DNA of 17,260 nucleotides. Source: Chloroflexota bacterium (GTDB taxonomy: Bacteria; Chloroflexota; Dormibacteria; Dormibacterales; Dormibacteraceae). Shown here piece by piece: positions 2,478 through 15,073 of this stretch; position 1 is the first letter of the stretch, and every line of letters begins with the position of its first letter. The notes beneath the pieces are model-generated. The model did not search any database and was not told where the DNA came from. It saw nothing but the letters and a program-made list of their open reading frames with translations. Made by a program: the position numbers and the translations under genes. The stretch covers positions 1,177-18,436 of the forward strand of contig VBJR01000039.1 of NCBI GenBank assembly GCA_005880175.1, in the 5' to 3' direction.

Positions 2478-3203
2478 TTGACGACACCTGACTCACGTTC
2501 ACGCAGCAACCACACCCAGGGAGCCGAGCCAGCCGGCGACGCGGAGGACGATCAAGCCGCAGCAAGGCCGTTCGTCGTCGAGTTCGCCGGGACGCCGCGC
2601 GCGGGCAAGACGACGGCGCTGCGCCGCCTGCGGCCGTGGCTGGAGGCGCGCGGCCACCGGGTCGGCGTGGTCGAGGAACGGGCCCGTCACTGCAAGGTGC
2701 CGTACAAGCGCCATCCCGACTTCAACCTGTGGACCGCGAGCGCCACCGTCGCCGAGATCCTCCAGGCCCGGTACGCCGGCCACGACGTGCTGCTCGTGGA
2801 CCGGGGACCGTTCGACGCGCTGACGTGGATGGACTGGTACCGGCGCATCGGCCTGCTGCCGGACGACGAGCACCGGGCCATCCAGGGCTATCTGGGCGGT
2901 CCCACGCTGGCCAGGATGATCGACCTGGTCGTGATGATGACGGTGGACCCGGCAGAGGCGCTCCACCGCGAGCTCGCGGGCGGGCGGCCGCACACGCCGG
3001 GGCCGATCATCAACTCGGCGACGCTGCACACGATCAACGACGCCATCGACGCCGTCGCGCGCAGCCGTCCCGACTTCCGCGTCGAGCACCTGGACACGAC
3101 ACTGACGGACGAGTTCGCGACGTTCGCCCACGTGTCAGAGCTCGTCGCGACCTGCCTGCGCATGTCCTCGCGCGCCTTCGCACAGGAGCTGATCGGAACG
3201 TAG
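2478..3203 (+). CDS. P-loop nucleotide kinase-like protein (thymidylate kinase-like/AAA_33-like)
   Basis: Read from TTG 2478 this gives 241 residues. The open frame extends upstream into the P450 gene, but only the TTG has a ribosome binding site (GGAGG, 5 nt away). Seen: a polar, probably disordered N-terminus (1-30), then beta-strand plus Walker A FAGTPRAGKTT (36-46), and a second strand ending in DVLLVDRGPFDAL (103-115), where D108-R109 match the Walker B/DR position of thymidylate and deoxynucleoside kinase-like folds. A basic region around HRELAGGRPHT (163-173) could be a lid. This supports an ATP-dependent phosphotransferase of the small-kinase class. Whether the acceptor is a nucleotide is not shown by the sequence. 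It lies 79 nt after the P450 and just before the promoter of the primase-HD gene, so co-transcription with the P450 is possible. Confidence 0.72.
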   Translation: MTTPDSRSRSNHTQGAEPAGDAEDDQAAARPFVVEFAGTPRAGKTTALRRLRPWLEARGHRVGVVEERARHCKVPYKRHPDFNLWTASATVAEILQARYAGHDVLLVDRGPFDALTWMDWYRRIGLLPDDEHRAIQGYLGGPTLARMIDLVVMMTVDPAEALHRELAGGRPHTPGPIINSATLHTINDAIDAVARSRPDFRVEHLDTTLTDEFATFAHVSELVATCLRMSSRAFAQELIGT

Positions 3204-3210
3204 CGCAAGT

Positions 3211-3249
3211 TTGACAGCGCTTGACACCGCGTCCAAGCGCTGGCATGCT
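3211..3249 (+). promoter_or_regulatory. Tandem TTGACA promoter of the primase-HD gene
   Basis: TTGACA occurs at 3211-3216 and again at 3221-3226, 10 bp apart. The second box is followed by exactly 17 bp and CATGCT (3244-3249). Box spacing and the -10 sequence are the same as at 1032-1070, while the spacer sequences differ. The ATG at 3271 would follow a leader of only about 15 nt. The first TTGACAGCGC decamer also occurs once at 2395-2404, without a second box. Confidence 0.62.
3215..3242. repeat. Perfect 9-bp inverted repeat inside the promoter (operator-like)
   Basis: CAGCGCTTG (3215-3223) and CAAGCGCTG (3234-3242) are perfect inverted copies separated by 10 nt. They overlap the second TTGACA box and reach to one base before the -10 box. 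This position suits a repressor operator. It lies 12 nt after the stop of the kinase-like gene, so it could instead form a weak terminator stem. Confidence 0.55.
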
Positions 3250-3270
3250 GAACCGGATCCATCGGCTGTC

Positions 3271-4422
3271 ATGCAGGCCGAGTTCGCCCTGCCCGCAGGT
3301 TCGCAGTGGCTGCCTTCCACACATGATCGCTCAACATCGCCCCCGCGTCGGGCCGACGACTGGGTGAACGCGCTCGAGGTGCTCCAGCGGATCATCGAGC
3401 GCCACGACCTGCAGGACGAGACATTCACGCTGGTTTCCCACCGCACGAGCATCGGCTGGCGCGTGCGTCATCCGTCGGCCGAGGACCGCATCGAGCACCT
3501 GTCGTCCACCGAGGCGGCGGCGGAGAACCGGCGCCCGCGGGGCGCGCGCGTACAGGGCCGGGCCCTCCTCCGCTTCGGCATGCGCGACCTGGACGGCTAC
3601 CGGTCGCATCCCGACCACGTGGTCTCCATCTCGTCGCGGCTGGGCGGCGCCCGCCAGCGGGGCCACCTCGCGCTGATGGACCTGCACCTGGACGAGTTCG
3701 TCCCGCGCGACCGCCTGCTGGGCGCGATCAGCGCGCTGTGCGAGGAGCGCGCCGCCTGGCTGCTGCGCACCGACCGCCACTACCACGTGTACGGCGACTT
3801 CCTGCTCGACCAGGACGAGTGGATGCGCTGGAACGTGCGGTTCCAGATGTCCCTGGCCCTGGCCGACGCGCGCTACGTCGGCCACTCCCTGCTGTGGGGT
3901 TGCAACCTCCTTCGCCTCAACGCCGGGGCGCTGCACCAGATCCGCGTGCCCAGCACCCAGCCGGACGGGACCGCGGCGCCTCCGGGCCCGCTCGCGACCG
4001 CCGCCGTCCAGCTCGCCCAGCGCCGCCACACCCGGCAGCTGCGGCGGGGCGGCGGCCTCGTCGTCGAGCACCTGCGCGAGGTCGCCGAGCTGGCCACCGC
4101 CATCCACGCCGAGTGCGCCGCCCGCGGGATCGGGCTCGACGACGTCACGGCGGAGCAGGTGTATGCGTGCGGCTACCTGCACGACTGCCTGGAGGACACG
4201 AACACGGACTTCGAGGACGTCGTGCGCGTGGCCGGGGCGCGGGTCGCGTACCTGGTCGGGCAGGTCAGCATGGACAAGCGCCTGCCGATGCGGGCCCGGC
4301 GGGCGGCGTACAACCGGCAGATCGCGCGGGCCAGCCTGGCGGCCCGCATCGTCAAGCTCGCGGACCTGCTCTCGAACCTGCGCGGCCTGACCGGCCAGGA
4401 GGGGCGAGCCACCAGCGGCTGA
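3271..4422 (+). CDS. Primase-like (AEP, 1D-like) domain fused to RelA/SpoT-type HD hydrolase domain
   Basis: The start is taken at ATG 3271, because upstream in-frame codons lie in the promoter; no clear ribosome binding site is seen, and 383 residues result. The C-terminal half (about 255-383) is an HD phosphohydrolase of the RelA/SpoT/MESH1 kind: H267 in VVEHLREVAELA, HDCLEDT (304-310) with the metal-binding HD and the ED pair, and VKLADLLSN (361-369). Members cleave (p)ppGpp or related nucleotides; no synthetase domain follows. The N-terminal half resembles archaeo-eukaryotic primases: acidic motif ALMDLHLDEF (134-143), RTDRHYHVYG (166-175) as the s-x-H strand, and ADARYVGH (198-205) with the third acidic residue D199. 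The HD call is firm and the primase call moderate. The frame probably shifts near 4400 and continues to 4514. It follows its own tandem TTGACA promoter. Confidence 0.72.
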   Translation: MQAEFALPAGSQWLPSTHDRSTSPPRRADDWVNALEVLQRIIERHDLQDETFTLVSHRTSIGWRVRHPSAEDRIEHLSSTEAAAENRRPRGARVQGRALLRFGMRDLDGYRSHPDHVVSISSRLGGARQRGHLALMDLHLDEFVPRDRLLGAISALCEERAAWLLRTDRHYHVYGDFLLDQDEWMRWNVRFQMSLALADARYVGHSLLWGCNLLRLNAGALHQIRVPSTQPDGTAAPPGPLATAAVQLAQRRHTRQLRRGGGLVVEHLREVAELATAIHAECAARGIGLDDVTAEQVYACGYLHDCLEDTNTDFEDVVRVAGARVAYLVGQVSMDKRLPMRARRAAYNRQIARASLAARIVKLADLLSNLRGLTGQEGRATSG

Positions 4423-4677: not shown

Positions 4678-7600
4678 ATGAGCGCCGACTACGGCAACGG
4701 CAGTGCGCCCGGCGGCCGGGAGCACCGCTCGAACGGGTGGAGCGTCCTGCCGATCGACCGGCTGTTCGATCTCCCGGCGGCGATCGAGCTGCCCGGCGAC
4801 CACCGGGAGATCGAGCAGCTGGTGACGCGGGGGCACCACGCCGAGGCGGCGACCGCCATCGCCGGCCTCGGCCCCCGGTCCCGCGTGGACCGGGAGCGGG
4901 CCGCCCGGGCCCAGGCCATCTGCCTCATGCGCGCCGGTGACCCGCAGCGCGCCGACCTGGTGCTGCGGTCGGCCACGCGCACCGCCGCGACCGCGTGGTT
5001 CCGGGCGTGCTCCCTGGTCCGCCTGGGCTGCCTGGTGGACGCCGCCGACGAGGTCGTGTGGACCGGTGAGCGCGTCCCGCTGCTCGGGAGCCGGCGCCGC
5101 GCCGCCCGGACCCTGCTCGGGATGCTCGGCCGGCCCCTGCCGCCCTGGCTGGTCGATCCCGTCCGCGACGGCGCCCTGAGCACGACCCCGCGCCCGTCGC
5201 CGCCGCCCTACCTGACCAGCTTCTTCTACCCGACGCGGCCCGACGTGCCGCCGGCGTTCGAGGACGCGGCCATCGCCGTCCAGCGCGGCCGCTACGACCA
5301 GGCCGCCCGCCTGCTGATCGACTCCCATCCGCGCTCGTCCCGGGTCGCGCGGCAGCTCGCCATCAGGATCGCCGAGTGCTGGCTGCTCGCCGGCGAGCCC
5401 GAGGCGGCGGCGGCCTGGCTGCACCACCGGCCGACCGCCGACGGCGCCTGGGCGCTGCTCTGCGCGCGCGTGCACCAGGACCGGCTGGACGAGGCGCTGG
5501 CGCAGCTGGTCGCGTCCGGTCCCTGCCCGAGGGCCTGGAGCAGCTGCGGGGCCACCCGTTCCTCGATCCCCGCCGGGCCCAGGACGCCGGCTACCGGCGG
5601 TTCGCGGACAAGGTCGTCCGCGAGGTCCGCCAGGGCGAGCCGGGCGCGGTCGAGCTGGTCGTCCAGCGGGTCGAGGCGCAGTGCGCCGGCCTCCCCGACG
5701 AGGCCGCCCGCAGCGTGCTGCTCCCGATGTACGAGGCCGCGGTGCGCGTCTGGTCGGCCCCCAGCCTGGCCGAGCGCGGGCTGGATCTCGCGCTGGCGCG
5801 GCCGGAGCTGCTCGGCAGCGACGAGGCGGCGTACTCCCGCGCGCTGCTGTTCGCGACCACGTGCGAGCGGCTGTCCCGGCTCCGCGCCGAGCTCCACGCG
5901 CTGGCCGGCCTGGTCGAGGACGACGCGACCCGGTTCGCGTGCTGGATGGCTTCCGCCAAGGCCAGCCTGGTCCTCGGCGACCTGGCCGGCATCAAGCGGG
6001 ACGCGGCCTACGCCCGCCACGCCGCCGCCTCGGACGCCGACCGGAACCGCGCCCGGCGAATGCGCCGGGCCGCCCACTGGCTGGCGCCGGAGGACGGGCC
6101 GCGCATCTCGCAGTGGCAGCTCCGGCCGCTGCACCACCTGCTGCCTCTGGCCGTCGCCGGGCGTCTCGAGGACCGCGACAGCACGTTCCAGGCGGAGCTG
6201 GAGGAGCGCGGCGCGGTGCTCGCCAGCCTGGACGCGGTCCTCCGCCAGACGCCGCCCTCGATCGCCGGTGCCCACGTGGTGGCGCAGGCGGCGCTTGAGG
6301 CGTGGGAGGACGCGCGGCGGACGCCCGGCGGCCGGAACGGCGTGCGGCCGGAGCAGCTGCCGCGCCTGCTGGCCCCCGCGTCGCCTCACCGGCCGGTCCC
6401 GTCTCTGGTCGAGGCGGCGCCGGCGCTCGGCGACGTGGTGACGATCCCGGCGGCCGAGCGCCTGACGCTGGAGCAGTGCTTCGTGGACCGCTGGGCGCTG
6501 CTCCCGGACGCGGCGCCGTTCCGCGGTCGCCAGTGGTTCGGGTCGGACACGGCGCACCGCCAGTACCAGCGCGGCCGCCAGGAGCTCGACGCCCGGGCCG
6601 CGTACAAGGCGTTCGAGGAGGCCTGGCTGATCGAGCCCAACTCCCGGCCGGCCACCCAGGGCCTGATCCTCGGCTGGGGCCGGCGTCTGGCCGAGAAGCC
6701 GGGGCGCCGGCACGTGCTCGAACACCTGGCGCGCATCCTCGACCAGATCAAGGGCCGCGAGGTGGAGGCCGCGCTCGCCTACACGACGCTCGCCGCCCAC
6801 GCGGACGTCCACGGCGGCCGGCGGGCGGCGCTGGAGCGGGCCGCCGCCGCGCTCGAACGCCGCGTGCGCCGCCAGCCCTGGACGCGCGCCCGCAACGCCG
6901 AGATCGCCATCCGGCTGGAGCTGGGCGACGTGGTGGCGGCCGGCGACGCCGCGTGGACCGAGTCCCAGCTGTTCCTGCCCGGCAGCGGGGACAGCAAGCG
7001 GTACGCGCTGCTCGCGGCCGCGCTGTGGGAGCGGGCGCGCGACCCCGGGCGGCTGCTGGGCGAGAGCGTGCGGGAGGCCCGGCAGCACGCCGTCCATCCC
7101 GAGCTGACGAACCGGGAGGCCGTGGAGTACGCGGTCGCGACCACCGGCCGGCTGGTGGCCCTGACCGACCTCACGCTCGACGAGGACGCCCTCGAGGACC
7201 TGTGGCTGGCCTGCCGGGGCGACGAGGACGACCTCTGCCGGTTCCTGGAGAAGCAGGGCACGCGGCCCGTGGACCCGCGCCCGCACTACCTGCGGTTCCT
7301 GGCCCGCAAGCTCGTCGCCGTGGACCCGGCCGCCGCGGCCCGGATCGACAGCATGTTGGCCCACCAGCGGCCGCCGGATCCGCCCGGGATCGCCTGGCTG
7401 CGCCTGGCCGCCGCCGACCTGATCGCGCTGGACCCCCTGGAGGAGGTGGCGACCCCGCAGAAGCAGCTCGCCGCGGTGCGCCTGCGCGAGTGCATGGCCG
7501 TGCTCCGCCAGTGCGCCCGGCACGACGAGGTCGCCTACTCCACGTTCGCCACCGCGGTGAAGGACGCGCTGGCGGCGCTGTTCGACGTGCGCGAGGCCGA

Positions 7601-8729
7601 CCCCTCGTCCGCGCCCGAGCCGTACGGCGAGCGGCTGGCCAAGGCCTCGGAGGCGCTCCAGGACGTGCGCTGGGCCGGCCGCCGCCTGGGCTCGCCGGCC
7701 GTCGCCGCCGTGGCCGAGCTGCTGTTCCGCTACCTGGCGCTGGCCCTCGACAGCCGCGTGATCGCCGCCTACCAGCTGCAGAAGGAGCGGCGCCTGGTCG
7801 CGAGCCGCATCGGTTCCCGCCTCGGCTCCTGGTGGGCGGACGTCAGCGAGGCGTCCGGCCCGCTCGACTTCTTCCACTACCACCAGTCGTACCGCTACGC
7901 CGGCGACGTCTCCCCGGACGAGTGGCTGCGGACCCACCACGTCCACGGCAAGCCGGTCCGCGAGGCCGTCGCCCTCCTCCTCGAGACGCTGGAGCGGCAC
8001 GGGCGCCGCCTCGCGGCCATCGAGGACGGCTTCCGGTCCGCCCGGCCCCGGCCGGGCCCGGTCCGGGACGCGTTCAGCCTCCAGGCCGAGCTCCAGGCCT
8101 GCTGCGGCGTGCTCCGGGGGGCGCTCCAGCCCTGCCCGGGAGCCGAGCAGCTGGGGGCGATGGAGACAGCGCTGGAGCGGCTGGGCCGGGCCCTCCGCCG
8201 CATCGACCTGGCGCGGCTGGTGGACCTCCCGCACCTCCTGTACGACAACGCGCTGCCCACCGGCCAGTACGTGCTGCCCCGGGCGACGGAGCTCCTCGAC
8301 CACCTGCGCCGCAACGTCCGGACCGGCGGCTGCCTCCAGGCCATCTGCGAGGTGGCCGACGACTCGGGCCGCGAGGTCAGCTGCGTGCTCACGCTGGACG
8401 GCGACGGCGGCCCGGCGCCCGAGTCCACGCCGCTTCGCGGCCTGAACCCGTTCTCCGACCTGGTCCAGGCACTGGGCGGCCAGTTCCACCTCTGGATGGC
8501 GCGGCCCGGGGAGCAGAGCGCCTGCCGCCTGCAGCACGACGACGGGCTGGTGTGCCTGGCGGACGACTACGTCCCCCGGATCGAGGAGCGCCTGCGCCGG
8601 CTCACCCGAGCCCGCTGGCGCAGCCAGCGCCAGACGGTGGAGCCGTGGCTGGGCGTCCTCGACGCGGCGCTCTCCACGCGGGGCAGCGTCAACCTCGCCT
8701 TCGTCCTCCTGCCACGCATGCACGAGTGA
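4678..8729 (+). CDS. Large TPR-like protein with degenerate histidine-kinase-type ATPase C-terminus; frameshifted
   Basis: The start is ATG 4678, behind GAGGTG at 4668-4673. The first frame encodes about 281 residues to about 5519; the rest (about 1069 residues) lies in the -1 frame to the TGA at 8727-8729. The protein is almost entirely helical with TPR-like pairs, such as GRYDQAARLLIDSHP and RLDEALAQLVASG, suggesting a scaffold or sensor. The last 150 residues look like a decayed HATPase domain: RATELLDHLRRNV where the N-box would be, CVLTLDGDGGPAPE resembling the D-x-G-x-G box, then RGLNPFSDLVQALGGQFHL resembling the G2 helix and the following GG-strand. Several ATP-binding glycines and the N-box asparagine are not conserved, and no phosphorylatable histidine box is evident. 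No transmembrane segment or signal peptide is seen. It heads an operon with three receiver proteins, which supports the kinase-like reading. It ends 10 nt before the next start. Confidence 0.68.
5511..5523 (+). other. Frameshift site in the TPR/HATPase-like gene
   Basis: Upstream, the frame of 4678 reads RLDEALAQLVASG. From about 5520 the -1 frame reads SLPEGLEQLRGHPFLDP, a normal continuation for TPR proteins. The old frame continues only as low-complexity shadow sequence to 6441. One inserted base around CGGTCCCTG restores a single reading frame. There is no good slippery heptamer, so an indel or base-calling error is likelier than programmed frameshifting. Confidence 0.8.
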
Positions 8730-8739
8730 GTGACCGACC

Positions 8740-11430
8740 ATGACGCCGACCGGCCCAGCCACCGCCTGCCTGACCGTGCTCCTGATCGACGACGCCGAGA
8801 CGCAGTCCGAGCGCATCCAGGACTGCCTGCGGGACTACGCGGTCTGGGTGGAGTGGCGGCCCAGCTACCGGGCCGCCGCGGAGCTGCTGCACGACCCTGA
8901 CCGGGGCCAGCTGATCGACCTGATCCTGATCGACCAGGACTTCACCGGCGACGCCGTCCCGCCGGAGGACCTGCTCACCCGTTCCGAGGTCGGCGGCCTG
9001 ACCGGCACGGACGACTGGGACGTGCGCCTCCACCAGGGCCTGTTCGTGATGGCGCGCCTGGGCCAGGACATGCGCGAGGGCCGCATCCCGTTCGCGCCCA
9101 TGATGATCCTGACCCACTACGCCAGGGTGGACATCGCGGGCCAGGTCAGCCTGGGCGGCTACGAGAGCAAGCGGCGCCTGATCACGGACCCGTACACCGC
9201 GCTCAAGGGCTACCTGGCGGCGATGCGGCCGACCGAGGTGGACGTGGACCGGCGCCTGGCCGACCTGCGGGCGCGGCTGGACCTGCCCGACGAGCTGACG
9301 GCCGAGATCCGGCGCGCGGTGCTCGGCGGCCTCGACCTGGAGGAGACGTCCGCCGCGGTCGGCCGGCTGACGGACCCCACCGACTGGCGCGCGGTCGGGC
9401 GGTCACTGGAGCGGCTCGCGGAGCGGCGCCGGACGTACTCCGTCGAGCGGCTGGCGCGGACGATCGAGGGGGCCTGGCTGGCCTCGCAGGCCGGATGGCT
9501 GCGCGTCGGCCACGTCGAGCCGGCGGGCCCGCTCGACCGCGAGTTCGACGCGTTCCAGGTCGAGATCTGCCAGCCCGGCACCACGTTCCCCGCCCTGCTG
9601 GCGGCGCGGGCCCTCCCGCCCGAGCAGATGCCGGCGACGGCCCAGGTGTCGCGCGGCTTCCGGATGCTGCGCGCGACCGACGGGCGCAGCCGGCCGGTCC
9701 GCCTGCACGACGCCGGGTGGACGATCCTCGGCTGCTGGGTGGCGCGGCCCGAGCGCTGGGACACCGGCCCGGGCGCGGCCGCCCGGCGCCTGCTCGGCGT
9801 GACCCGCCACGTGCGCCACCTCCACGGCCGCGGGCTGGCCCACGGCTCGCTGTCCGTGCTCAGCACCGGGTACGAGCCGCCGGTGTTCGGCGCCATCCGC
9901 TGCCTGGCCGGCGCCTGCGACGCCGCCCAGCTCCGGCTCGACGACCTCCGGCAGCTGCCGGCGCTCGCGGTGTCGGCGTTCGGCGAGGACCCGGCGCCGG
10001 CCGTGCGCGCCGAGCTGGCGCGGTGGGCCGCGTGCGTGGACGCGGGCGACCTCGACGGCGCCGAGCGGGTCCTGGAGGCGGCCGACCTGCGGGACGAGGC
10101 GCCCGCGTACCTCGACTTCGACAGCCGCCTGTACTGCGGCGGGGAGCAGGGCTTCCGCGACCGGCTCCTGGCCAGCCTGGGCGCCGAGGATGCCGTCCTG
10201 CGCGAGGTCCGGTGCGACGAGGTGTCGGCCTCGCCGCTGGACTTCGTCGTCTGCGCGGCGGGCGCCGTGGCGGTGCTCGAGCACCGGACGCGGCTCCGGC
10301 GCGTCGTGCTCGGCAACGGCGACGTGGCCGGCGTCGAGGCCGATGCGCCCGAGTCGGAGGACGCGCGGTGCCGGCGCTCGCTGGCGCGGTGCCGGCGCTC
10401 GGCCGACGCCCTGGCCGCCCGGGTGGAGGCGGCGATGGACCTGGGCCCCGGCTCCGTTCGCCGGCTGGCGGCCCTGGTGGTCGCCGAGGGCACGGTCGTC
10501 GAGCCCGGGTACGCCGCCGCCTGGCGTCCGGTGGTGACGGAGGCGGAGGCCGTCTCGGAGCTGGTGAGCCTCTCGCGGGCAGGGCGCTCGCCGCGGGGCG
10601 TGGACATGGCGAGGTACGTCTCCCCGCCGTCGCCGCCGGACGACGAGGCGCACGCGGGGCGGCGGGCGCTGCACTGGACGACCCTCGCCTTCGGCCCGAA
10701 CCTGACCCGGATGCGCACGTGGCGCAAGCAGTGGCCGGCCAGGTCCTGGCGGCACCTGCTGACCCGGCTGGCCACGGCCCGGCTGGCCCTGCGCCCGCCT
10801 GGCGACGAGGCCGCGCCGCTGCGGCTGGTCGCCCTGCGCGCGTACGACGACGACGGCAGGGCCCGCGACGTGGCCGAGGAGGCCGAGGCCGTGGACGTGG
10901 TCGAGTACGACCTGCGGATGCCGGGCGAGACCGCGCCCCTGGCCACGTACTTCGGCGACGCGGGCAGCGAGGCCGTCCGGCGCCGGATGGCCGCCCAGGT
11001 GCTGCGCAGCCTGCTCTGCTGGGAGCGCTGCCGCCTCGCCTACCGGACGATGGGGCCGGACGGCCTCGTGTACGCGGGCGGGATCGTCCACTTCGACCTG
11101 CTGCAGTCGGTCTCCCCGCCCGACGTGGAGTCGCGCTGGCGCATGCGGCTCGGCGCGGCCGCCAGCCTGGTGTTCCTGCTGTCGCCGTGGCCGCACGCCT
11201 GGCCGGCCGTCCTGGGCGGGACCACGCCCGCGCTGCCGGTCCGGCCGGACGAGGGGTCGGCGTGGGGCATCGCGGCCGGGGCCGTGGCGGTGCTGCTGGA
11301 CCCCGACGCCGAGCTCGGGCGCCTGGAGGCGACGCTCTACGAGAGCGTCCAGCTGCTCGACGCGGCAGCGCTGCTCGACCACCGCTTCCCCGCGTGGCCG
11401 GCCGGCCTGGCCCGCGAGGCGCTCTCTTGA
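8740..11430 (+). CDS. Receiver-pseudokinase-NERD-like fusion protein
   Basis: This 896-residue protein starts 10 nt after the TPR gene. Residues 11-160 form a receiver domain: LLIDD (14-18) acidic pair, phosphoacceptor D65 in DLILIDQDF, T125 in MMILTHYA, and K144. An insertion of about 35 residues after strand 3 makes it longer than usual. Residues about 240-400 resemble a protein kinase whose catalytic loop reads LHGRGLAHGSLSVLS (361-375): HRD is HGS, and DFG is VFG (382-384), so it should be a pseudokinase. Residues about 465-620 resemble a NERD domain (PD-(D/E)xK-like nuclease fold), with PLDFVV (D501) and VAVLEHR (E514, then R516 where lysine is usual), so catalysis is doubtful. NERD-kinase fusions occur in phage-defence proteins such as PglW. 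The remaining 280 residues are unassigned; AGGIVHFDLLQ (779-789) is faintly kinase-like. The receiver call is firm and the other two moderate. Confidence 0.68.
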   Translation: MTPTGPATACLTVLLIDDAETQSERIQDCLRDYAVWVEWRPSYRAAAELLHDPDRGQLIDLILIDQDFTGDAVPPEDLLTRSEVGGLTGTDDWDVRLHQGLFVMARLGQDMREGRIPFAPMMILTHYARVDIAGQVSLGGYESKRRLITDPYTALKGYLAAMRPTEVDVDRRLADLRARLDLPDELTAEIRRAVLGGLDLEETSAAVGRLTDPTDWRAVGRSLERLAERRRTYSVERLARTIEGAWLASQAGWLRVGHVEPAGPLDREFDAFQVEICQPGTTFPALLAARALPPEQMPATAQVSRGFRMLRATDGRSRPVRLHDAGWTILGCWVARPERWDTGPGAAARRLLGVTRHVRHLHGRGLAHGSLSVLSTGYEPPVFGAIRCLAGACDAAQLRLDDLRQLPALAVSAFGEDPAPAVRAELARWAACVDAGDLDGAERVLEAADLRDEAPAYLDFDSRLYCGGEQGFRDRLLASLGAEDAVLREVRCDEVSASPLDFVVCAAGAVAVLEHRTRLRRVVLGNGDVAGVEADAPESEDARCRRSLARCRRSADALAARVEAAMDLGPGSVRRLAALVVAEGTVVEPGYAAAWRPVVTEAEAVSELVSLSRAGRSPRGVDMARYVSPPSPPDDEAHAGRRALHWTTLAFGPNLTRMRTWRKQWPARSWRHLLTRLATARLALRPPGDEAAPLRLVALRAYDDDGRARDVAEEAEAVDVVEYDLRMPGETAPLATYFGDAGSEAVRRRMAAQVLRSLLCWERCRLAYRTMGPDGLVYAGGIVHFDLLQSVSPPDVESRWRMRLGAAASLVFLLSPWPHAWPAVLGGTTPALPVRPDEGSAWGIAAGAVAVLLDPDAELGRLEATLYESVQLLDAAALLDHRFPAWPAGLAREALS
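10363..10401 (+). repeat. Perfect 18-nt in-frame direct repeat, period 21 nt
   Basis: GCGCGGTGCCGGCGCTCG occurs at 10363-10380 and 10384-10401. The 21-nt period equals seven codons, so the protein repeats ARCRRSL then ARCRRSA in a helical segment after the NERD-like strand motifs. This looks like a recent in-frame duplication. Confidence 0.85.
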
Positions 11431-11437
11431 GCGCGGA

Positions 11438-12313
11438 ATGGCAAGAGGGGGCGGGCCCTCGGTCTCTTCCGGGGCGGTTCCAGTGAGCGCCGCCGTGCGG
11501 CCCGCCGGCCCCCCGGATGTCCTGGTCTGCCTCGGCGGCGGGCTGTCGGTGCCGTGGGAGGGCCGGGTGGTGGACCTCCGCGACGCTGGCCCGCTCAGCG
11601 CGCAGCGGCCGGACGAGGTGACGGTCTGGGCGCCCGCGGGCGCGTGGTGGCGGGCCTTCCGCCTGCTCGCCCTGTTCAAGAGCGCCGCGCCCGAGGCGTG
11701 CCTGGTGCTGACCGACGAGCTGCCGCCGCTGGACCTCGTGCCGTTCGACGGCCGGGTGTCGGTGGTGGCCGGCAGCGCGCCCGGCCGCGTGTGGGCCGGC
11801 ACGGCGGCGTTCTCCTGCGCCGACCTCCGCAGCGACCGGATCTTCCGGCTCCTGCTCGACGGCCGGGCCCGGCGGCGGCCGCGCCTGGAGGACCTCCTGC
11901 GCATGCACCTGCTCGCCGGCACGGCGCACGGGGCGCGGACCCTGGAGCGCTGGCGGGACGTGCTGCCGGTCCTGTTCGGCGGCGGCCTGGAGGCGATGAT
12001 GCCCGGCGCGCTGCGGGCCGACCTGGAGGAGCTCCGGGAGGCGGCGCGCGACGCCGAGCACGCGGTCACGGGCGGCTTCCACGCGCTCGATGGGGTCGTC
12101 CGGCGGCCGCCGGAGTGGGAGGCGGGGGCGCGCCGGTACCTCCGCCTGGCCGCCGCCCACTCGCCGGCGGCGCGGGCGGCGGTGGACCGCTGGCTGGAGG
12201 CGAGGACCGGTTGGGTCGAGGCGCCGCCGGCCCTCCAGGAGGAGTACCGGGAGGCGGCGGCCCGGCTGCTCCACCGCCTGGTGGACGACCCCTGGCTGGA
12301 GGGGCCACCGTGA
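11438..12313 (+). CDS. Uncharacterised protein of the receiver operon
   Basis: I do not recognise this 291-residue protein. It begins 8 nt after the stop of the receiver-pseudokinase gene, or at GTG 11483, which has a GGGGCGG 5 nt upstream and would drop 15 residues. The first 120 residues alternate short hydrophobic strands and helices (DVLVCLGGG, DEVTVWAP, CLVLTDELP, RVSVVAGSAP), consistent with a Rossmann-like or very divergent receiver-like fold, but the receiver acidic pair and phosphoacceptor are not visible. Residues from about 130 to the end are helical and rich in Arg, Leu and Ala, with an aromatic patch WLEARTGW near the C-terminus. There is no signal peptide or membrane segment. 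The stop overlaps the GTG of the next gene by 4 nt (GTGA), so it is translated with the receiver proteins and probably binds one of them. Confidence 0.75.
   Translation: MARGGGPSVSSGAVPVSAAVRPAGPPDVLVCLGGGLSVPWEGRVVDLRDAGPLSAQRPDEVTVWAPAGAWWRAFRLLALFKSAAPEACLVLTDELPPLDLVPFDGRVSVVAGSAPGRVWAGTAAFSCADLRSDRIFRLLLDGRARRRPRLEDLLRMHLLAGTAHGARTLERWRDVLPVLFGGGLEAMMPGALRADLEELREAARDAEHAVTGGFHALDGVVRRPPEWEAGARRYLRLAAAHSPAARAAVDRWLEARTGWVEAPPALQEEYREAAARLLHRLVDDPWLEGPP
12298..12304 (+). promoter_or_regulatory. Ribosome binding site for the stand-alone receiver
   Basis: GGAGGGG lies 5 nt before GTG 12310 and supports that start inside the GTGA overlap with the preceding gene. Confidence 0.75.
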
Positions 12314-12918
12314 GGCTGCGCACCGCCCTGATCGTGGATGACGAGGAGGAGCGCCGGTACGACATGCGGGACGGGCTGCGGGAGCACGGGGTCGCGTGCG
12401 ACGAGGCGGCGACCGTCGAGGAGGCGATCCGGCGGCTGGTCTCGGCGCCGTACGACCTGGTGGTGTGCGACATGATCCTCTGCGACCCGCCGGGGGCCGC
12501 CAACCCCGAGCTCCGCGGCTACCTGGCCGTGTGCTTCGCGCTGAGCCGGCCGGGCGCCCTCGTGGTCCAGGCCAGCTCGCTGCGGCGCTGGGCGCACGCC
12601 GGGGCGGTCCTCACGAACTGGCGGGCGGACGAGGTGGCCGAGCTGGTATACGGCTGCGCGGGCATCCCGCCCGGCCGCAGCGCGGATGGCGGGTGTCCGC
12701 TGGAGGCGCTGCGGCGGGTCACGGCGGCGACGCTCGCCCGCCGCCGCGACGCCGTGGAGGACCTGCTCTCGGTGCCCATCGTGCGCCACCTGGAGCCCGT
12801 GCTCGACGGCGCGCTGGCCGTCCTGGAGGACGCCGCGGAGGGACGGGCGGACTGGGAGCTGGCCGTCTCCGGGGCGTGGGCCGCGATGTTTCCGGGAGGT
12901 CGCGATGGCGCTGTCTGA
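12310..12918 (+). CDS. Receiver-domain protein with helical C-terminal tail
   Basis: The GTG start gives 202 residues. Residues 5-115 form a response-regulator receiver: ALIVDDEEE (6-14) gives the acidic pair D10/D11, VVCDMILCDPP (51-61) gives phosphoacceptor D54, and VVQASS (85-90) is the strand-4 Ser/Thr. The lysine normally found at the end of strand 5 (usually KP) is replaced: VLTNW (100-104) puts N103 there, so phosphorylation switching may be altered. Residues 115-202 are helical with no DNA-binding motif, so this is a single-domain output or relay protein, perhaps acting by binding. It overlaps the upstream gene by 4 nt and the downstream gene by 14 nt, so it belongs to the same operon and likely exchanges phosphate with, or competes with, the other receivers here. 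Confidence 0.85.
   Translation: MRLRTALIVDDEEERRYDMRDGLREHGVACDEAATVEEAIRRLVSAPYDLVVCDMILCDPPGAANPELRGYLAVCFALSRPGALVVQASSLRRWAHAGAVLTNWRADEVAELVYGCAGIPPGRSADGGCPLEALRRVTAATLARRRDAVEDLLSVPIVRHLEPVLDGALAVLEDAAEGRADWELAVSGAWAAMFPGGRDGAV
12894..12900 (+). promoter_or_regulatory. Ribosome binding site for the double receiver-wHTH protein
   Basis: GGGAGGT lies 4 nt before ATG 12905, inside the end of the preceding gene. It fixes the start of the 644-residue regulator. Confidence 0.8.
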
Positions 12919-14839
12919 CGACCGTGCGCTGCGCTGGTGGGAGGCGTGGGAGCGGCGCCGCCAGCGCTGCCTGCGCCAGGACGAGGTCGGCGACCAGCGG
13001 TCGTCGCTGGCTCCCGAGGCGCTGGCGATCCTGCAGGAGGCGCGGGCGCTGGCCGCCGTCGCCGACCCGGCGGTGCACGCCGCGGCGCCGGTGGACCTGC
13101 TGATCGAGCGGGTGAACGACCTGCCCCACGTGGCGGCCGTGCTGCTGCACGGGCCCGTGTGCAACGGGCTGAGCATGCTGCGGCTGTCGGCCCAGGAGCT
13201 GCTGGCCGCGGCCGCGACGCCCCGCCGGGCGGCGACGGCGCCGCGGCCGCGGCGGCCCGCCGCCGACGGGCGGGCGAGGGGCCCCGGTCGCCGGGGCCGG
13301 TTCGACTGGTTCCTGGTCGTGGGCGACGGCGCCGAGATGGTCGAGCTGGCCGAGGAGTGCAGCGCGTCGCTGACCGGGTCACCCGCGGTGCGCGCCGCGG
13401 GCACCGTCGAGGCGGCCCTGGAGGCGCTCCGGCGCGAGGGTGGCGGCATCGTGCTCACCAGCCTGATCCTGCCCTCCGCCGAGGCGGGGCCCGGGCCGCA
13501 CGGGCTGCGGGTGGCGCGGGAGGCGAGGCGGCGCCGCCACGCCGTCCTGCTGCTGACCGCGGCGAGCGACTACCTCGACTACTGGCCGCGGCTGGCCGGG
13601 GCGGGGCTGACCGGCCACGACGTGGTGGTCAAGACCCGGGCCGACTTCGCGGCGCACCTGGTCCGGCGGGTGCGGGAGATCGTCGAGCCGGAGCCGCTTC
13701 GGATCACGTTCGACCAGGACACCGGCCACGTGGTGCACATCGGCGACGTCGAGGTGTCGCACCTGGAGGCGCAGGAGGCGCTGGTGCTGCGGTTCCTGGA
13801 CGCGACGTGGCAGACGCCCGAGGTGGTCGCGGACGCGTGCGCCCAGGAGACCGACCTGGCCCCCACGCCGGGCGGCGTCCCGCCGCTGATCTCGACGCTG
13901 CGCCACAAGCTGGCCGCCGCGCTCGTGGACGCGGAGAGCCCGAGCGCCCAGCGCGAGGTGATCGAGAGCCGGCGCCGCGAGGGCCTGCCCACCCAGTACC
14001 GGCTGGCGCCCTGGCTGCGCCGCGACGACCCGCCGGAGCCGGCCGGAGCCGCGCCCGAGCTGCCGCCGGTGCTGGTGGTGGAGGACGACCCGGACTGGGC
14101 GCAGTGGGTGATCGGCTGGCTGGAGGAGCTGCGCTGGCCGGCCAGCGTGGCGGCGACGGTGGAGGACGCACGGCGGGCGCTGTCGGGGACGGAGCTGCCG
14201 GTCGTGGTGGCGGACCTGGGCCTGCGCCGCGCGGCGGGCGAGGTGCCGGACCCGGAGGCCGGGCTGACGCTGATCGAGGAGGTCTCGGCGTGCCGGCACG
14301 GCATGCGGGTGGTGGTCCTGTCGGCGTTCGGCGGCCGCGACACGCTGCGCGCCAGGCTGTTCGAGGCCGGCGTGCGGACGGTGGACGTGATCGACAAGGC
14401 GGCGGGCCGGGACGAGTGCCGGGCCGTGCTGCTGACGTCGCTGCAGCGGGCGGCGGACGAGGTGTGGCGGGGCGTGCGGCGGGGTCGGGAGCGGTCGCCG
14501 GTGCACCGGGTCATCCGGCTGGAGCGGGCCCGGATCGAGGTGGACGGGGTGGCGATCACGAAGCTGTCCACCCGGGAGGCGCAGGTGCTGGACGTGCTGT
14601 TCGCCCACGCGAACCAGCCGGTGAAGGCGGAGCTGCTGGAGCTGTGCTTCCCAACGGGCCCACGCTCGGGCCACAACCCGCCGCTGAACAAGGTCCAGCT
14701 GACGGTCTCGCGGCTGCGCGGCAAGATCGACCGGAGCGTGGGCCGCTCCGGCACGGGCGAGTCGGTGATCCGCACGCGCCACCGCGGCGCGATGAGCACG
14801 TACGAGCTGTACGGCGTGGTGACGGACCCTCCGCGCTAG
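12905..14839 (+). CDS. Tandem response regulator: receiver-wHTH-receiver-wHTH
   Basis: This 644-residue protein starts at ATG 12905 with a good ribosome binding site. Residues 1-110 are a helical N-terminus without a recognised family, followed by a Pro/Arg/Ala linker. The first receiver (133-250) is degenerate: strand 3 reads IVLTSLILP (182-190), putting S186 at the phosphoacceptor, while K243 in VVVKT is kept. The first OmpR/PhoB-like winged helix spans about 266-368 (LISTLRHKL, then PTQYRLAP). The second receiver (388-510) is complete: E393/D394/D395, D437 in VVVADLGL, S473 in VVLSAFG, and K498 in VIDKAAG. The second winged helix spans about 535-637: KLSTREAQVLDVLF, LTVSRLRGKID as recognition helix, and IRTRHRGAMSTYEL as wing. 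It is the obvious DNA-binding output of the operon, one chain able to contact two sites. The TAG stop is followed by the convergent terminator region. Confidence 0.9.
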   Translation: MALSDDRALRWWEAWERRRQRCLRQDEVGDQRSSLAPEALAILQEARALAAVADPAVHAAAPVDLLIERVNDLPHVAAVLLHGPVCNGLSMLRLSAQELLAAAATPRRAATAPRPRRPAADGRARGPGRRGRFDWFLVVGDGAEMVELAEECSASLTGSPAVRAAGTVEAALEALRREGGGIVLTSLILPSAEAGPGPHGLRVAREARRRRHAVLLLTAASDYLDYWPRLAGAGLTGHDVVVKTRADFAAHLVRRVREIVEPEPLRITFDQDTGHVVHIGDVEVSHLEAQEALVLRFLDATWQTPEVVADACAQETDLAPTPGGVPPLISTLRHKLAAALVDAESPSAQREVIESRRREGLPTQYRLAPWLRRDDPPEPAGAAPELPPVLVVEDDPDWAQWVIGWLEELRWPASVAATVEDARRALSGTELPVVVADLGLRRAAGEVPDPEAGLTLIEEVSACRHGMRVVVLSAFGGRDTLRARLFEAGVRTVDVIDKAAGRDECRAVLLTSLQRAADEVWRGVRRGRERSPVHRVIRLERARIEVDGVAITKLSTREAQVLDVLFAHANQPVKAELLELCFPTGPRSGHNPPLNKVQLTVSRLRGKIDRSVGRSGTGESVIRTRHRGAMSTYELYGVVTDPPR

Positions 14840-14934: not shown

Positions 14935-14973
14935 CCCATCCTGTCCGGGCCTGGGGGGCCCGGACAGGATGGG
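14935..14973. terminator. Perfect 17-bp hairpin between convergent genes
   Basis: Arm CCCATCCTGTCCGGGCC (14935-14951) and its exact complement at 14957-14973 flank a 5-nt TGGGG loop. It lies between the two convergent operons and should work as a bidirectional terminator. Neither side has a T-tract, which is common in GC-rich bacteria. Confidence 0.7.
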
Positions 14974-15011: not shown

Positions 15012-15073
15012 GCGATTTGGCGCCGAACCGCCCATTCGCCCGCACTTGATGCAGCGATATGGCGCCAAATCGC
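15012..15073. repeat. 13-bp perfect inverted repeat with 36-nt spacer
   Basis: GCGATTTGGCGCC (15012-15024) and GGCGCCAAATCGC (15061-15073) are exact inverted copies, each containing the palindrome GGCGCC. The spacer (15025-15060) has no open frame of note. The arms are less GC-rich than the surroundings. Possible roles are a second terminator, a regulator site or a mobile-element remnant; none is shown. Confidence 0.75.

Follow-up and report, generated by a model that had tools for sequence, protein, structure and literature searches.

What a run of five closely spaced genes that joins receiver domains to kinase-like modules might do in a bacterium is the question raised by a stretch of 17,260 nucleotides (nt) from a Chloroflexota bacterium of the Dormibacteraceae (assembly GCA_005880175.1, contig VBJR01000039.1, positions 1,177 to 18,436), hereafter the window. 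The genes, numbered 1 to 5, occupy positions 4678–14839 of its plus strand and constitute what we term the cassette. We posit, with a probability of about one half, that these genes form a signalling operon that has not been described and has few known relatives, and that the state of a protein complex is governed by receiver phosphorylation rather than by catalysis from the operon's own kinases. The well-supported parts of this reading are the operon itself, the combination of a receiver with two kinase-like domains in gene 2 and the mixture of altered and intact receivers with DNA-binding domains in gene 5. A sequence-only reading had described a self-contained cassette for signalling, perhaps in stress or phage conflict, in which several of the catalytic sites had changed jointly. 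The joint alteration is supported, and the altered residues of genes 2 and 5 are common to relatives. The self-contained character is not, because no active histidine kinase is visible and those receivers of genes 2, 4 and 5 that have a phospho-Asp depend on a donor from outside the cassette.

The five-gene operon is real: the plus-strand genes are separated by 10, 7, −4 and −14 nt, and genes 2–5 are open frames at 8740–11430, 11438–12313, 12310–12918 and 12905–14839. The gaps and these four genes are as previously described; gene 1, previously taken as a fifth intact gene, is not one open frame (see below).

Gene 2 joins an intact receiver to two kinase-like domains

Protein searches, in each of which the roughly 7990 candidates with the most shared words were scored, list 16 relatives of gene 1, 10 of gene 2 (11 proteins including the window's own) and 19 of gene 5. 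The gene 2 product (8740–11430; 896 residues), whose relatives show 52–63% protein identity to it, had been described as receiver-pseudokinase-NERD, an order that captured the receiver and a kinase-like fold but missed a second kinase-like domain and included a NERD domain not reached by sequence. Its receiver (residues 9–161; 8764–9222; Pfam E=0.03, under the cut-off) is intact, with D17, D18, D65 and K144 kept in 11/11 proteins and T125 in 10/11; like the second receiver of gene 5, it has the acidic residues, phospho-Asp, Thr/Ser and Lys of a receiver. Kinase-like domain 1 (residues 237–452; 9448–10095) comes from structure prediction; by motif reading, its catalytic loop is HGS, its DFG position is without Asp and its beta-3 Lys position is Arg in 10/11. 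Kinase-like domain 2 (residues 637–891; 10648–11412), likewise from structure prediction, keeps K663 and D786 in 10/10, and position 770, which we read as the catalytic base (the HRD Asp), is not Asp in any of the nine rows with letters. By their residues, both domains look catalytically dead.

Between the two lies a NERD-like domain (residues ~456–630; 10105–10629), predicted from a helix-strand-strand-strand...helix-strand order of secondary structure and from D501 and E514-x-R516. Its site reads D...ExR, with D501 in 10/11 and E514 in 9/10, and the Lys of ExK is Arg in nine of ten proteins and Trp in one. This domain gave no significant profile match, and structure comparison of gene 2, in which only residues 8–162 were well sampled, returned no NERD or restriction-enzyme entry among the top 50 listed. 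Across the cassette, profile hidden Markov models recovered receivers (one above the cut-off) and winged helix-turn-helix (wHTH) domains but did not reach the kinase and NERD families in gene 2 or the HATPase family in gene 1; structure prediction recovered the kinase-like domain already proposed for gene 2, added the second and made an ATPase fold likely in gene 1.

Gene 5 pairs an altered and an intact receiver

The gene 5 product (12905–14839; 644 residues) comprises an N-terminal domain, a pseudo-receiver, a wHTH-like domain, a receiver and a wHTH, so that the receiver-wHTH-receiver-wHTH order proposed earlier holds, as does the alteration of the first receiver. Receiver 1 (13277–13690) is matched over residues 126–208 by the PDB receivers BfmR and RstA (E about 0.002) and by receiver 2 of the same protein (hhalign probability 96.9%). 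It is without the phospho-Asp, the position being S, N or G in all 19 rows that have a letter there (the window's own and those of 18 relatives), and retains T218 and K243 in 19/19. The wHTH-like domain that follows (13694–14032) shows a weak, collinear similarity to wHTH 2 (hhalign probability 10.4%). Receiver 2 (14057–14449) is intact, with D437 and K498 in 20/20, and a Pfam receiver match to gene 5 lies above the cut-off. Behind it, the second wHTH (14477–14836) is of the OmpR type: a match to BasR spans receiver 2 and wHTH 2, and Trans_reg_C is found in 19/20 gene 5 members at E<=1 (best 1.2e-10; window copy E=0.0015, under the curated cut-off). Receiver 2 and wHTH 2 thus resemble BasR and its relatives, whereas the whole protein differs from OmpR-type regulators in having two receivers and two wHTH domains, a receiver 1 without phospho-Asp and an extra N-terminal domain. 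Since relatives share the altered residues of genes 2 and 5, these are not decay in one strain.

One of the 19 gene 5 relatives (P0026) has a C-terminal TIR_2 domain (E 1.9e-15). PHROG 731, of unknown function, matches gene 5 (1.5e-15) and gene 4 (7.5e-07) over receiver and wHTH stretches. In the N-terminal domain (12905–13240), H82 is present in 19/19 rows, within a motif that we take to recall the H-box of DHp domains, a likeness that found no search support: when 14 of the 20 rows were compared with PDB sequences, the reading of the N-terminus as a DHp was not supported.

Gene 1 probably ends in a pseudo-ATPase domain

Gene 1 (4678–8729, ATG at 4678) encodes a helical, TPR-like protein with a probable C-terminal histidine-kinase-like pseudo-ATPase domain, and is broken in the window: its span of 4052 nt is not divisible by three, so there is no single open frame. 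Residues 1–278 of a close relative (P0031, 1467 residues) match frame 1 (4678–5511) and the remainder matches frame 3 (5514–8726), which places a frame change near 5511–5520; at a second break near 6200, an in-frame stretch of 95 residues is absent relative to this relative. Identity between the two is 96% over the last 843 residues and 91–92% ahead of that. A protein from a separate assembly (P0032) is 100% identical over 843 residues and carries the sequence just ahead of the junction near 6200; this gap may therefore reflect faulty assembly or a polymorphism. Intact relatives exist, with 6 of the 16 listed spanning 1435–1477 residues. Two different gene 1 relatives (P0033 and P0043) are both on 14060-base contig entries, which suggests two gene 1 copies on one contig.

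The earlier description of gene 1 as a TPR protein with an HATPase-like end is borne out in part. Structure prediction of the C-terminus (8187–8726; model residues 330–509) makes a histidine-kinase-type CA (HATPase)-like ATPase fold likely, whereas TPR stays under the Pfam cut-off (E=0.0084) and HATPase_c is not among the 12 families listed for the 16 gene 1 members at E<=10. Those members match DUF309 (6/16, best E 0.00022) and ANAPC3 (2/16, best 4.3e-05). The CA-like domain keeps an N-box-type Asn and a G1-type Asp; its ATP lid is short, the box glycines are not conserved, and the G1 and G2 nucleotide boxes expected of a histidine kinase are not recovered, where the names N-box, G1 and G2 are presumed assignments of ours. 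Judging from the predicted fold, gene 1 probably ends in a pseudo-ATPase domain of the histidine-kinase type.

Genes 1, 2 and 5 are probably linked in relatives

The named relatives are four proteins of one Candidatus Dormibacteraeota metagenome-assembled genome (VIC57) together with a single protein recorded as Candidatus Eisenbacteria. Within VIC57, which has two partial gene 1 relatives, the gene 1 and gene 2 relatives bear locus tags 10180 and 10175 and lie on contigs of equal size. The contig size given for a relative is that of the longest contig of its protein cluster, and an equal size is therefore an indirect sign of one contig. Seven such sizes recur between the lists: 236366 bases is common to all three genes, 29102 and 40874 to genes 2 and 5, 55572 and 108747 to genes 1 and 5, and 9117 and 4535 to genes 1 and 2. 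Among the six sizes of at least 20 kb, five are shared by two or more of these genes, and the sixth (59201) occurs for gene 1 only. This recurrence supports the linkage of genes 1, 2 and 5 in relatives, with all three together only once. Scans of genome contigs for two of these genes, and of viral contigs for genes 1, 2 and 5, returned no relative, although both required exact short peptides, so that the absence is weak; tblastn found none for gene 2 in plasmids and phages or for gene 5 in plasmids.

Comparison with PglW, DndF and DivL

The nearest published architecture to gene 2, as far as the available parts of the sources go, is the NERD, inactive kinase and active kinase part of PglW and DndF, from which gene 2 differs in order, receiver and activity. 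PglW of type 2 bacteriophage exclusion (BREX) is described in the accessible portion of PMC12839542 as NERD, inactive kinase, active kinase, helical domain, three wHTH domains and an inactive STAND domain. Gene 2 is likewise one protein with a NERD-like and two kinase-like domains, of which one is inactive in PglW (PMC12839542, same portion). Against that portion, gene 2 has the order receiver, inactive kinase-like, NERD-like and second inactive-looking kinase within 896 residues; the residue that we read as the HRD Asp of its second kinase is not Asp, whereas the second kinase of PglW is active; and it stops at residue 896, the end of kinase-like domain 2, without a triple wHTH or STAND domain behind. 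Profile-profile comparison with five plasmid-encoded PglW proteins was not significant (P of 0.049 for NERD, 0.12 and 0.10 for the kinase-like domains against the active kinase, and 0.26 and 0.12 against the inactive one, with 0.037 for an unrelated pair). When either kinase-like domain is aligned locally to the active PglW kinase, the best alignment falls on its catalytic loop, again without significance. PADLOC gave a match in 0/11 gene 2 members at E<=10, and nothing resembling a BREX partner was seen among the five cassette genes and six flanking genes scanned. Because the profile homology is not significant and PADLOC returned nothing, we do not file gene 2 as a PglW; it may nevertheless work with similar parts.

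Some DndF proteins of DndFGH systems fuse NERD to tandem inactive and active kinases, sometimes with a wHTH, according to the accessible part of PMC10853773, and so share the NERD and tandem kinase modules of gene 2. They differ in having a kinase core of the P-loop type with a large lid, which is not seen in the cassette, and the text never mentions 'receiver' (PMC10853773). The accessible part of another source mentions receivers once, among sporadic effectors (PMC7159879). In open-licence literature, we found no paper combining a NERD domain, a receiver domain and a kinase, none on TIR with response regulator, histidine kinase and anti-phage defence, and none on Dormibacter defence systems with two-component signalling. 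For gene 1, the comparison is with DivL of Caulobacter, a histidine kinase that has come to sense the phosphorylated form of a response regulator (PMC4211667). DivL has PAS domains and its partner is known; gene 1 has a long region of helical repeats instead, and its sequence gave no significant match.

A proposed phosphorylation-gated complex and its alternatives

We favour control by outside phosphorylation and docking onto gene 1, because the receivers are intact where the kinases are not. An outside histidine kinase would supply the phosphoryl groups, and the receivers would dock on gene 1, a long protein of helical repeats with a pseudo histidine kinase at its end, in the manner of DivK~P on DivL. 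Phosphorylation of the gene 2 receiver might then release or hold the kinase-like and NERD-like body, making gene 2 a gated effector, and gene 5 would convey this state through transcription. What results may be a response to invaders or to stress. A defence role is plausible, and we give conflict and plain regulation about even odds. The phage conflict suggested earlier draws on the PglW and DndF likeness, on the single TIR fusion and on weak PADLOC matches of genes 4 and 5 to PDC-M60B/C and SduA (E 0.0007–0.005), which lie on receiver stretches only; gene 2 has none. We read these matches as a shared common receiver domain and reject them as a defence identity.

A bolder version of this signalling operon, which we advance tentatively and rather doubt, is an immune-like switch in which the gene 1 pseudo histidine kinase would sense an invader and restrain the receiver-gated NERD/double-pseudokinase protein of gene 2, while receiver phosphorylation, read via the dead and live receivers of gene 5, would time the release of the NERD-like effector and its genes. 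If true, this would be a two-component system whose every cassette kinase is a pseudokinase. More generally, the cassette would bring bacterial phosphorelay receivers together with modules of the PglW and DndF sort, and would offer a compact case for conserved pseudoenzymes acting as docking switches. The pairing of dead and live receivers in gene 5 makes the role of pseudo-receivers directly testable.

The alternative that survives best, and that we regard as a real if lesser possibility, is a lineage-specific housekeeping or developmental regulator (of cell cycle, dormancy or secondary metabolism) with no conflict role, in which the NERD-like and kinase-like parts are only scaffolds. The neighbours of the cassette (a P450, a thiolase-like gene, a methyltransferase and an ABC ATPase) agree with this, as do the lack of PADLOC matches in gene 2 members and of relatives in the viral contigs (genes 1, 2 and 5), plasmids (2 and 5) and phages (2) searched. 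A regulatory function does not preclude one in defence, given that a two-component pair regulating CRISPR-Cas has reportedly been described in one study. The TIR domain in one of 19 gene 5 relatives and an archaeo-eukaryotic-primase-like/HD gene upstream also speak against a purely housekeeping role, as does the association of NERD with tandem kinase-like domains in PglW and DndF (accessible parts of PMC12839542 and PMC10853773).

We consider it unlikely that the cassette is a nuclease defence system of the PglW/DndF kind, in which the NERD nuclease would be active and the receivers would only regulate. Its module set does resemble the NERD, inactive kinase and second kinase of PglW, as far as the accessible source describes them, the NERD-like domain mostly keeps D501 and E514, and the best kinase alignments fall on the PglW catalytic loop. 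However, the Lys of ExK is replaced throughout, the second kinase is without its catalytic base, the domain order differs, and the PglW profile scores are equalled by an unrelated pair, with PADLOC again silent. A decaying relic, for which the frame change and missing stretches of gene 1 and the lost catalytic residues would signify loss of function, is very improbable given that the altered residues are shared at the identities noted for gene 2 relatives, that full-length gene 1 relatives occur and that P0032 makes one gene 1 gap a possible assembly fault or polymorphism.

Genes 3 and 4 and the surrounding DNA

Gene 3 (11438–12313; 291 residues) has no recognised domain, as noted before, and Pfam and other profile searches found no family. 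Its first part (11438–11830) resembles the gene 2 NERD-like profile around the ...VCxGG... strand, in a weak local match (59 columns, probability 29%) that scored above 150/150 shuffles and was picked out of 65 comparisons. A receiver was rejected for this gene, with 29, 36 and 17 of 40 shuffles equalling its score against three receiver profiles. Gene 4 (12310–12918; 202 residues) is a receiver with a tail, in agreement with the earlier call (Pfam Response_reg E=4.2e-06, under the cut-off); it matches receiver 2 of gene 5 (hhalign probability 93.7%) and, in this single sequence, has the Asp and an apparently replaced Lys.

The window has a G+C content of 70–79% per kilobase, no tRNA and no Rfam match. 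In the convergent gap after gene 5, a perfect 17-bp inverted repeat (14935–14973, no strand assigned; shuffle z −5.57 for a 66-nt stretch) makes a strong hairpin and is probably the end of the transcription unit; consensus searches detected neither T-tailed terminators nor sigma-70 promoters. The same gap holds two near-palindromes 42 nt apart, 15012–15031 and 15054–15073, with two mismatches and one, respectively, to the pattern GCGATTTGGCGCCAAATCGC, which was built from both sites and occurs nowhere else in the window and in no shuffle.

A defence island check of this window alone recognised no known system. Upstream of the cassette, the plus-strand gene at 3211–4422 combines an archaeo-eukaryotic-primase-like domain (PF24387, E 2.9e-18) with an HD domain like that of SpoT/RelA, and starts 7 nt after a small plus-strand P-loop kinase-like gene that ends at 3203; the two are possibly a separate nucleotide-handling or conflict module.

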